DNA of 64,000 bases from Defluviitaleaceae bacterium (GTDB taxonomy: Bacteria; Bacillota; Clostridia; Lachnospirales; WRAX01): NCBI GenBank assembly GCA_009784615.1, contig WRBJ01000001.1, positions 1-64,000 of the forward strand. Direction: 5' to 3'. Below, one piece after another: positions 2,919-62,908 of this stretch (positions within the stretch are counted from its first letter, which is position 1; every line of letters starts with the position of its first letter). A program made the position numbers and the translations under genes. The notes under the pieces are model-generated. The model searched no databases, was not told the origin of the DNA, and saw only the letters and a program-made list of their open reading frames with translations.

Positions 2919-3802
2919 ATATTTTCAACCTCTAGCCCACGACCTATGTATACACGATTATCAATATCTGTCTGTATTAGTGTCTTTTGTGTGGGATGTG
3001 TGTTTGTTGTATCGTAATTTGCTTTTTCTTGTGCATTGATGCTTACAAAGGAAATGGGCAGACCCGCCGAAGTGAAAAACGATTTACCTGTTTGTAATTG
3101 AAAATGCAAATGCGGCTCAGATGTATTGCCAGAATTGCCGCATTTTGCTATTATTTGCCCCTGCGTTACTTTTTCGCCTTTTTGTACTGTAATGCTATGG
3201 GGGACAAGATGGGCACAAAGGCTATATTCACCTTCGGCGTGTTTGATGACAATAAAATTACCTCTAATATCCCAAGTATCGCAAAAAACCTTTGTGCCGT
3301 TTGCCCTGCTATCCTTGTGTTTGTTGCTTACTTTTACAACAATACCGTCTGCTGGTGCCACCACATTTTTGCCATAACAAAAATAGCTTTGCAGGCTGGT
3401 GTTATCATCGTTAAAAGATTTGCCCTCATCATCCATTATTATAAAATCATAAGCATATCTTTGTGAGATTATATCCCAAGAATGGGATAAATCTTTTGTA
3501 ACGCCGCCGTTAAAAACTGTCCATTTGCCTTCAAAAGGCAGGATATAATCCACCTTGCAATTATAATTTTCAACAGAAGGCATATTTGCCCTATGCTTTA
3601 CATTTGCAATAAGTCCGCCGAAAAACTGCGCCATACCCATCCAAAAACCAATATCTAAAAACACAAACAAGCAAAGTAAAAAAAGCAGGCTAAAAATTGG
3701 GTGGTTAAAAGCAACGCCAAAAAGACCGCCCAAAGCCCAAACAAGCAACCAAGCGAAACCTATTTTCCATATAGCATTAATAATGCGCACAAAAAACATC
3801 AT
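2915..3802 (-). CDS. Membrane-anchored M23 family metallopeptidase
   Basis: A 295-residue protein with two N-terminal membrane segments (residues about 8-65) and a C-terminal LytM/M23 domain (residues about 145-250). The zinc-site motifs are visible: an NGTKVF...NFIVIKHAEGEYSLCAHL stretch and the HLHFQ motif near residue 235. The enzyme probably cuts peptidoglycan cross-bridges outside the membrane. It overlaps the receiver gene upstream (ATGA) and the EamA gene downstream, so the three form a tight operon. The combination with an exporter and a receiver protein is unusual, and no joint function can be inferred. Confidence 0.88.
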   Translation of the reverse strand: MMFFVRIINAIWKIGFAWLLVWALGGLFGVAFNHPIFSLLFLLCLFVFLDIGFWMGMAQFFGGLIANVKHRANMPSVENYNCKVDYILPFEGKWTVFNGGVTKDLSHSWDIISQRYAYDFIIMDDEGKSFNDDNTSLQSYFCYGKNVVAPADGIVVKVSNKHKDSRANGTKVFCDTWDIRGNFIVIKHAEGEYSLCAHLVPHSITVQKGEKVTQGQIIAKCGNSGNTSEPHLHFQLQTGKSFFTSAGLPISFVSINAQEKANYDTTNTHPTQKTLIQTDIDNRVYIGRGLEVENI

Positions 3803-59436: not shown

Positions 59437-59597
59437 CATCAAGCCCGAAGTATTATTCCGACTGGATTGCTTCGGGCTTGATGTGTATTGGTTTAGGTAT
59501 GTGGTAGCCCTCGCAATGACGGAGTATAGAAGGGTAACCGTCATTGCGAGGGACGTTCCTACGATAAGATGGGTAGTGAACCCCGAAGCAATCCAGT
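59437..59597 (-). repeat. Dispersed palindromic repeat, copy C (complete, with terminal inverted repeats)
   Basis: The core 59461-59576 is the reverse complement of copy A. It is bounded by inverted ends ACTGGATTGCTTCGGG (59461-59476) and CCCGAAGCAATCCAGT (to 59597). Its centre holds the CCTCGCAATGACGG hairpin. A further 14-base stem, CATCAAGCCCGAAG (59437-59450) with CTTCGGGCTTGATG (59470-59483), overlaps the left end right after the pdp stop. It encodes no protein. The ends suggest a MITE-like element. Confidence 0.85.
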
Positions 59598-59659: not shown

Positions 59660-59688
59660 TTGACAAAGTTAGGTAAATGGTATATGAT
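59660..59688 (+). promoter_or_regulatory. Promoter of the structured RNA
   Basis: TTGACA (59660-59665) and TATGAT (59683-59688) with a 17-base spacer. Transcription would start near 59695. Confidence 0.8.
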
Positions 59689-59694
59689 GGTATT

Positions 59695-59888
59695 GCCACT
59701 CGCTCCGAAGAAACGGACGGGAATAAGAAAACGCTTGTCGGGTGGGGTTTCCCTAACAAAGTCAACCCACCACGACAAGCACCATTCCCAGTCCAAAGAC
59801 CTAAGTGTAGATTAACACACTTCAGGTCTATTTGTCAAGCACATCTTAAAATATTTAAAAACAATACCCCAATAGGAGGTATTTTTTT
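59695..59888 (+). ncRNA. Putative structured non-coding RNA of about 190 bases
   Basis: No gene lies between a strong promoter and a terminator here. The transcript would fold as follows: GGAC (59715-59718) with GTCC (59791-59794), GGGAAT (59719-59724) with ATTCCC (59784-59789), GCTTGTCG (59733-59740) with CGACAAGC (59773-59780), and GGTGGG (59741-59746) with CCCACC (59766-59771). A second hairpin pairs 59797-59808 with 59817-59829 (one bulge). It ends in the terminator at 59863-59888. It has a 6S-like rod shape, but I do not recognise the family. Confidence 0.65.
59863..59888 (+). terminator. Terminator of the structured RNA
   Basis: AATACCCC and GGAGGTATT form a stem with one bulged A and an AATA loop, followed by a run of T. 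Confidence 0.8.
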
Positions 59889-60003
59889 ATTCAAAGAAAA
59901 ATAAATGGTAAAAAAGTTTTTTGCACTTCCTCAAACTTTCGTAAATTAATTGCGTATATGTTATCAAAGCAAGAAATTTTTACGAAAAAAAGGAGTGTTT
60001 GTT

Positions 60004-60570
60004 ATGAATCACGACCCAAATAGCGGTATTGATAAGAGCGATTATACACGTGATAATCGAGCAGAAGCACCAACACCTGCCGCGCCGCCTGTTCCACCGC
60101 CACCGCCTTATTATGGCGGATACCACGGTTACCCTGTAATTAAAAAACCAAGCCGTTTTATATTGTTTATATTGGCTTGTATCCCTGGTTTGGGACATAT
60201 GTATATGGGACTAATACGTCGTGGGCTGTTTTATCTTTCCGCCACTGCATTTACAATATTTATGACGGTGGTTGCGGGGATGAACTTTTGGATTTTAACG
60301 CCGCTTACATCATTTGCAATTTTGGCTGTTTATGCCGTGGCGTTTTTTGAATCATTATCCATACGCCGTGATTTTGTTATGGGTAAAGAGGTTGTAGACC
60401 GTTTGCCTGCGTTTGTTGCAGGTAAAGGCTTTGTGCCGATAATTGCTCTTGCGGCTCTTGCTGTATTTGCAATTGGCTTTTTGGCATCGCTTACTTGGCA
60501 GGGTTGGATAATTATCATTTTGATAGCTGTTTTATGCGCCGTGCTGTTTTCACGCAAAAAAACAAAATAG
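60004..60570 (+). CDS. Small proline-rich membrane protein
   Basis: A 188-residue protein. A soluble N-terminus rich in Ala and Pro (residues 20-45, ending in a YYGGYHGYP stretch) is followed by about four to five membrane segments from residue 55 on. The first membrane pair, FILACIPGLGHMYMGLIRRGLFYLSA, resembles the G-x-G-x-x-Y-x-G pattern of TM2-like domains. AAAGGAG precedes the ATG at 60004; earlier in-frame starts lack one. Function unknown. Confidence 0.78.
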   Translation: MNHDPNSGIDKSDYTRDNRAEAPTPAAPPVPPPPPYYGGYHGYPVIKKPSRFILFILACIPGLGHMYMGLIRRGLFYLSATAFTIFMTVVAGMNFWILTPLTSFAILAVYAVAFFESLSIRRDFVMGKEVVDRLPAFVAGKGFVPIIALAALAVFAIGFLASLTWQGWIIIILIAVLCAVLFSRKKTK

Positions 60571-61451: not shown

Positions 61452-62342
61452 ATGAAAAAAGGATTATCAAGGGGACTAGGCAAGGGATTGGATGCCCTAA
61501 TTACATATAATAGCAACGAGCCATTAGAAGCAAGTGCAGAGATTGTTAACGCCGATATTAATGCGGTTGTGCCTAACGCCGACCAACCCAGAAAGGTTTT
61601 TAAACCACAAGAAATTGAAGAATTAGCAGAATCTATAAAAGAATTTGGTATAATACAACCGCTGATTGTAAAACAAAATGGTGACACATATACTATCATA
61701 GCAGGCGAGCGACGTTGGCGAGCGGCAAATGCGGCTGGACTTTCTGTTGTACCTGTCATTGTGCGGGATTATACCGAGCTTGAAATTTTAGGCATTGCAT
61801 TGATTGAAAATATACAGCGTGAAGATTTAAACCCCGTCGAAGAAGCTATGTGCTATAAACGTCTTAATGAAGATTTTGGAATAACACAAGACGAGATTGC
61901 GAAAAAAATAGGCAAAAGTCGTAGCCATATCAGCAATTGCATACGCATATTAAAACTGCAAGATAGCGTGCTTGAAATGGTTTCGCAGGAAGAACTTACA
62001 ATGGGGCACGCAAAGGCTTTATTGGCTGTTGAAGATGTACAAAAGCAGGTGGAGCTTGCCAAGAAAATATTTAACGAGCAAATGAACGTGCGCAAAACAG
62101 AGGAGCTTGTACGCAATGTTTTAGAAGAAGAGAAAGATTTAGATAATAGTCCGAAAAAATTGCCTTCAAAATCTATTAACAAAACCTATGTAAGCTATCA
62201 ATCTGATTTAAATAATTTTTTAAAAACACGTGTTAATATAAAAGATAATAAAAAAGAAGGTAGCGGCGGCAAGATTGAAATTGCGTATTTTTCACCAGAA
62301 GATTTAGAGCGCATTATTGGGGTTATAAAAAGCCGCATTTAA
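61452..62342 (+). CDS. parB: ParB/Spo0J chromosome-partitioning protein
   Basis: A 296-residue CTP-dependent DNA clamp. It opens KKGLSRGLGKGLDALI. The ParB/Srx domain holds the CTP-binding motif IAGERRWRAANAAG and ALIENIQREDLNPVEEA. The helix-turn-helix (TQDEIAKKIGKSRSHISNCIRIL) would recognise parS. I choose the ATG at 61452, since the earlier in-frame TTG overlaps parA. I found no perfect parS site (TGTTTCACGTGAAACA) in the window. Confidence 0.95.
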   Translation: MKKGLSRGLGKGLDALITYNSNEPLEASAEIVNADINAVVPNADQPRKVFKPQEIEELAESIKEFGIIQPLIVKQNGDTYTIIAGERRWRAANAAGLSVVPVIVRDYTELEILGIALIENIQREDLNPVEEAMCYKRLNEDFGITQDEIAKKIGKSRSHISNCIRILKLQDSVLEMVSQEELTMGHAKALLAVEDVQKQVELAKKIFNEQMNVRKTEELVRNVLEEEKDLDNSPKKLPSKSINKTYVSYQSDLNNFLKTRVNIKDNKKEGSGGKIEIAYFSPEDLERIIGVIKSRI

Positions 62343-62351
62343 GCGGCTTTT
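62328..62351. terminator. Shared terminator of parB and thiT
   Basis: A nine-base stem (AAAAGCCGC/GCGGCTTTT) with a six-base loop, overlapping the 3' ends of both convergent genes, with A and T runs on either side. Confidence 0.8.
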
Positions 62352-62908
62352 GTGCTACGTACCAATTTTTTAATGCGATTTAATCCGTCTTGTACAGGCG
62401 GCAAAGAAATGACTACTATTGTCGCAATGGCTTCTATATACATATATGGGGCGTTGTAAACCATAGATGCCCATAATGAACCCGGTGCTGCATCAAACCA
62501 ATATAGCCATCCCGCTAAGGTTGACATAACAAACCGACCCGTTACAGCAACAGCAAAGCCTACTTGCATATTAAATCTACCTTTCATTTTCCAAAAAAAT
62601 CCTGATAATCCCAACATACCAAATGCCAAGGGATAGTCCAGTATAAATTGCATAGGATGTATAACGCTTGCACGTTGCACCAATTGCAAAAGTCCATACG
62701 CAACACCTGAAACCACCCCGACAACAGGTCCAAAAAACATACCAATCGCCGACACAAAAAACATAGAAAATGGTGTAATAGACCCACTGTTTGGCATAGA
62801 AAACACACGTATGTATGACAGTGCAAAGGCTATGCCCAGCAACAACCCACAAAAAACCAGCGTGCGCAAACTAAACTTCGTTTGCCAATAACTTTGAAAT
62901 TTCTGCAT
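62339..62908 (-). CDS. thiT: Thiamine ECF transporter substrate-binding subunit ThiT
   Basis: A 189-residue membrane protein with six membrane segments. Family stretches are ALSYIRVFSMPNSGSITPFSMFF (the loop that contacts thiamine), GVVSGVAYGLLQL and HPMQFILDYPLAFGMLG. ThiT captures thiamine and needs the shared EcfAA'T module, not encoded here. A TPP riboswitch lies upstream, which confirms the substrate. GGAGG precedes the ATG. Confidence 0.95.
   Translation of the reverse strand: MQKFQSYWQTKFSLRTLVFCGLLLGIAFALSYIRVFSMPNSGSITPFSMFFVSAIGMFFGPVVGVVSGVAYGLLQLVQRASVIHPMQFILDYPLAFGMLGLSGFFWKMKGRFNMQVGFAVAVTGRFVMSTLAGWLYWFDAAPGSLWASMVYNAPYMYIEAIATIVVISLPPVQDGLNRIKKLVRSTKAA

Follow-up and report, generated by a model that had tools for sequence, protein, structure and literature searches.

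A candidate family of structured leader RNAs with self-terminated, gene-less copies in Defluviitaleaceae of the termite gut

What is the compact transcription unit that lies between the genes of a Defluviitaleaceae bacterium, and does it belong to any known class of RNA? The window, i.e., the whole stretch of DNA analysed, comprises 64,000 nucleotides (GCA_009784615.1, contig WRBJ01000001.1, positions 1 to 64,000), and a preliminary description had placed in it, at 59660-59888, a structured orphan RNA with its own consensus promoter and terminator. The layout was borne out. The sigma-70 promoter TTGACA-17-TATGAT (59660-59688, + strand) matches the consensus at 11 of 12 positions, and the predicted transcript of about 194 nt (59695-59888, +), inferred from promoter and terminator with its start assumed to lie 7 nt after the -10 box, ends in an intrinsic terminator detected by a terminator scan (AATACCCCAATAGGAGGTATT followed by a T run, 8-pair stem; 59863-59888, +). 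The terminator hairpin is palindromic, and one scan reported the same hairpin on the opposite strand. The segment 59660-59888 folds with an energy of -71.9 kcal/mol, compared with -46.0 ± 4.2 kcal/mol for shuffled sequences (z = -6.15), and none of 200 shuffles reached the native value. The stem TTGACAAA/TTTGTCAA, which closes the naive fold, overlaps the -35 box; it was discarded as part of the transcript and is absent from the predicted RNA because of that location. The switch proposed earlier between GGTATT and the AATACC of the terminator did not hold up either, the GGUAUU/AAUACC pairing being confined to the window copy, while locus L009 has the same 5' end followed by an unrelated terminator.

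The element proved not to be an orphan but one member of a large family. The query 59660-59888 retrieved many copies from the window's own genome (G000; 1.58 Mb in 43 contigs), most of the alignable ones being 70-92% identical, and several of them interrupted by contig ends. Promoter and core are conserved in 21 aligned copies, with the 5' spacer and the 3' end variable, and a covariance model built from 19 copies recovered about 23 sense copies in G000. Weak antisense matches in the search lists overlap genuine sense copies, since the element is internally symmetric. A promoter with 11-12 of 12 consensus matches precedes 54 of 63 RNA copies, and its spacing is 17 in 51 of these 54; in reversed controls of the promoter scan, the best score never exceeded 9.

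By covariance search, nine of the 16 genomes examined from the same taxonomic family carry the RNA; these nine are draft MAGs, mostly incomplete, with 1 to about 50 copies per genome (about 50 in G013 and 7-10 each in G004, G011, G014 and G015). A second covariance model (59 matches), run against 392 genomes of the order under stricter filters and with few candidates scored per genome, yielded none in the 376 genomes of other families. When 84,980 species genomes were scanned for the pattern, matches came only from 'Defluviitaleaceae' termite-gut MAGs, apart from two (L117 and L127) dismissed as chance because the covariance model finds nothing at either locus. The matching MAGs are bins from Labiotermes and Embiratermes hindguts (PMC7024585). 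As judged from these genome searches, the new family is confined, within their reach, to a single termite-gut family of Clostridia. A sub-family with the tail UUUGCAA in place of UUGUCAA occurs in G013 (L149:657-775 and 3363-3481, L170, L174 and L175), two of its copies lying among phage-like genes.

The architecture of the RNA consists of a helix, P1, which encloses the long hairpin P2 and is followed by the hairpin P3 and an unpaired UUGUCAA tail. In the window, all on the + strand, the 5' strand of P1 (GGACGGGAAT, 59715-59724) lies 5' of a junction, J12 (59725-59732), that is A-rich across the aligned copies, and pairs with the bases 3' of P2 (ATTCCCAGTCC, 59784-59794, with A59790 bulged). 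The fold and the alignment of copies place the 5' strand of P2 at 59733-59746 (GCTTGTCGGGTGGG) and its 3' strand at 59766-59780 (CCCACCACGACAAGC, with A59772 bulged). P3 spans 59797-59829, as defined by fold and conservation, and the tail AUUUGUCAAGCA occupies 59830-59841.

Compensatory changes, which the preliminary description had suggested looking for in relatives, were found among the copies in all three helices, so that the RNA has the conserved and compensated secondary structure expected of structured leaders in general. P1 varies widely in sequence with its complementarity kept, as in GGACGGGAAU/AUUCCCAGUCC, GGGUUGAG/CUCAGCCC, GACUUGUA/UACAAGUC and UAAGGGC/GCCCUUA. Over 63 copies, the energies of the matched P1 duplexes sum to -731 kcal/mol, compared with -421 ± 21 kcal/mol for permuted partners, and none of 20,000 permutations was as good as the copy-specific pairing. 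For P2 and P3, both sides change in 13 of 15 modelled pairs, and 126 double-change cells were counted against 32 in shuffles, a signal that was lost when the partner was slid; these exact figures lean towards structure, because the alignment had been fitted to the model and also contains a few antisense rows.

Among the unpaired positions, the best conserved lie in the P3 loop and the tail. In 79 copies, the A and then the U-A of the P3 loop (motif AUUNUA) reach 99-100% and the GUCAA of the UUGUCAA tail 96-100%, with the loops of P2 and the 5' spacer variable. Within the limits of sequence comparison, this pattern shows selection acting on the predicted RNA fold and on two unpaired motifs, upstream of small genes. 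In ten gene-less copies, including that of the window, the 3' arm of P2 (59766-59780) is invariant, compared with five variable positions in the 5' arm, a hint that the 3' arm may also be read by itself. A candidate antisense target for this arm was rejected, all perfect 13-mer matches in the genome lying within RNA copies. A fourth hairpin, P4, formed from the tail and lying before the ribosome site, scored better than shuffled segments; within genomes, copy-specific pairing was not found for it (p = 0.23).

The copies fall into two classes. Most are 5' leaders, in which promoter and RNA are followed, as expected of a 5' UTR, by a ribosome site, a start codon and a small gene, usually AbrB-like. 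The others are gene-less. A terminator follows the tail in 16 of 20 gene-less copies and precedes the start codon in none of 32 gene-bearing ones, compared with 6% in shuffled sequence. The window copy belongs to the gene-less class and carries its own promoter and its own terminator, as an independent sRNA gene would. In its 3' end it shows homology to gene-bearing copies: alignment reveals a relic of a translation start (59874-59891, +), with AGGAGG at 59874-59879, now within the terminator, and ATT at 59889-59891, in place of the AGGTGG and ATG of gene-bearing copies. The earlier statement that the unit contains no ORF with a ribosome site stands, none being translated inside 59660-59888, but this relic remains. 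The terminators of ten G000 copies agree in position and type (e.g., AUCAGUC...GGCUGAU-U), and this agreement suggests that an sRNA form already established was amplified; from these ten, the window copy differs in its 3' end. The suggestion that the locus encodes a new small RNA is thereby strengthened, given the multiple copies, covariation, conserved promoter and terminators of the gene-less class.

The AbrB-like proteins encoded behind the RNA have two AbrB domains in G000 and G011; in G013, some have two, and others have one AbrB domain with CxxCGR. These proteins match AbrB-family models, and the tandem ones also match the solved structures of AbrB, Abh and SpoVT. In G000, all seven tandem-AbrB genes with an intact N terminus stand directly behind an RNA copy, leader and gene having duplicated together. 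The tandem-AbrB family is present in six genomes of the taxonomic family, five of which have several RNA copies; in the sixth, G010, there is one borderline AbrB match and the RNA was not found. Behind the RNA in G015 and G003, and behind some of the copies in G011 and G014, lie genes for other small or secreted proteins. AbrB is not a universal partner, because the G015 copies stand before unrelated genes and tandem AbrB was not found in that genome. At L149 (IMGVR_UViG_2820537337), L057, L075, L079 and L088, the RNA leaders are followed by AbrB-like proteins of about 60 aa that have a single domain and end in CxxCG.

The explanation that we prefer, and to which we give about an even chance, is a new family of structured leader RNAs that has been co-amplified with small regulator genes and has given rise to self-terminated sRNA derivatives. 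The leader form probably came first. In its ancestral state, the RNA would have been the 5' leader of a small gene, usually one for a tandem AbrB/MazE-fold protein; it would have had a strong sigma-70 promoter to itself and preceded the ribosome site of that gene. Leader and gene would have been duplicated repeatedly, often beside palindromic repeats. Some copies, including that of the window, would then have lost the start codon and had their 3' part turned into an intrinsic terminator, and the unit would therefore yield a free transcript of about 195 nt. The P3 loop and the UUGUCAA tail may bind a factor common to the regulon, which would control expression of the downstream genes, and free copies may act in trans by competing for this leader-binding factor. 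A bolder version, which we consider doubtful, is a regulon-wide element in which each genome has dozens of small genes, AbrB-type and other, behind a common leader read by one factor, and free copies titrate that factor in trans; it would amount to a family-wide layer of control at the RNA level that spreads with mobile repeats.

The most serious rival, though an improbable one, is a dispersed mobile repeat of MITE or REP type, whose structure and promoter would serve its own spread without benefit to the cell and whose gene-less copies would be relics. The copies are indeed interspersed and amplified, and contigs break within them. A palindromic REP/MITE-like repeat at 59437-59597 flanks the window copy. 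Of the roughly 25 loci that this repeat has in the genome, about 12 are no more than about 250 bp away from an RNA copy or its gene, far above chance, and about half of the G000 RNA copies are that close to the repeat; in G013, most inspected RNA copies adjoin a different palindromic repeat. One phage-like contig holds one gene-bearing and two gene-less copies. These associations suggest, at the level of sequence context, that the RNA units may spread together with small mobile repeats. The inverted ends TTGACAA...TTGTCAA also exist, as a mobile element might have them; in many copies, however, the promoter end varies on its own, the tail remaining constant as the -35 extension changes. A reading of TTGACAA/TTGTCAA as terminal inverted repeats is doubtful: a correlation was seen at one position of the extension (32 of 50, compared with 20 expected, the relatedness of copies being uncontrolled) and at none of the others. 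Neither target duplications nor sharp common ends were established, and a terminator stands directly behind the tail in most gene-less copies. Three helices compensate, and loop and tail are 96-100% conserved, across genus-level divergence, which argues for selection on an RNA.

A ligand-binding riboswitch class, of which the window copy would have lost its gene and the gene-less copies would be functionless, is likewise an unlikely reading. It would account for the leader position, the unpaired conserved core and the downstream genes that differ among genera. Against it, these genes have no evident pathway in common, and the gene-less copies retain promoter, fold and terminator. Riboswitches in up to about 50 copies per genome would be unusual, and this is the number that the present family attains. 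Moreover, no consistent switching element was found in the leaders: with ribosome-site access and P4 examined, no consistent alternative pairing of the riboswitch type was found, and the ribosome site of gene-bearing leaders is not consistently sequestered (mean unpaired probability about 0.41).

That the RNA is a riboswitch or leader of the membrane protein gene at 60004-60570, as had been proposed, is refuted by synteny and scarcely credible. This gene is on the same strand as the RNA, 115 bp further downstream, but the terminator intervenes, and the idea was rejected because the orthologues of the gene in relatives are not preceded by the RNA and retain a conserved ECF-like promoter of their own. 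An ECF-sigma-like promoter (AAACTT ... CGTA, about 59930-59970) lies upstream of 60004-60570 in the window and is conserved in orthologues across the family. The genome G001 is without the RNA, and its gene order differs from that of the window. Finally, 6S RNA or any other catalogued RNA, suggested by the size and the one long hairpin, is refuted and has next to no probability left, as Rfam 15 gave no credible match at gathering score and E ≤ 10 for the window element, 6S (RF00013) included, nor any match for seven related loci, and the 6S RNA of G000 is a separate gene (G000:C16:7524-7728, 78.6 bits). The only Rfam match of the window above the gathering score is a TPP riboswitch (RF00059, 62940-63039, - strand, 63.7 bits); the gene downstream of it (62339-62908, -) encodes a small membrane protein resembling the S component of a thiamine ECF transporter. 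A literature search found no description of the RNA family. By the measure of Rfam, a library of RNAs already described, the family is previously uncatalogued; predicted RNA sets of the human microbiome (e.g., PMC8040213) lay outside this comparison.

The family ties AbrB-fold regulators, which form a large set of paralogues, to one common RNA leader. Three covarying helices in up to about 50 copies per genome without an Rfam entry are unusual in themselves. Copies with and without a gene form numerous natural pairs that offer a test bed for the role of a dispersed RNA, and the covariance model can be used for annotating termite-gut genomes.

Among known systems, bcr1 of Bacillus cereus and BOX of pneumococcus are dispersed structured repeats that are short, multi-copy and foldable as RNA. 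The new RNA is likewise short, interspersed, multi-copy and foldable, but unlike them it has its own sigma-70 promoter, its helices show deep compensatory variation between genera, and many of its copies lead through a ribosome site into a dedicated small gene. The downstream proteins resemble AbrB/SpoVT/MazE-fold transcription factors in the models and structures that they match, and differ from the known ones in having two AbrB domains in about 100-120 aa, several paralogues per genome and an RNA leader upstream. Termite-flg (RF01729) and Termite-leu (RF01730) are structured motifs of mRNA leaders from the termite gut, discovered by comparative genomics (PMC2864571). Like these, the new family is a structured termite-gut RNA recognised by covariation and located partly upstream of genes; unlike these, and with no Rfam match to either, it precedes AbrB-fold and other small genes, attains a very high copy number and includes self-terminated gene-less forms.
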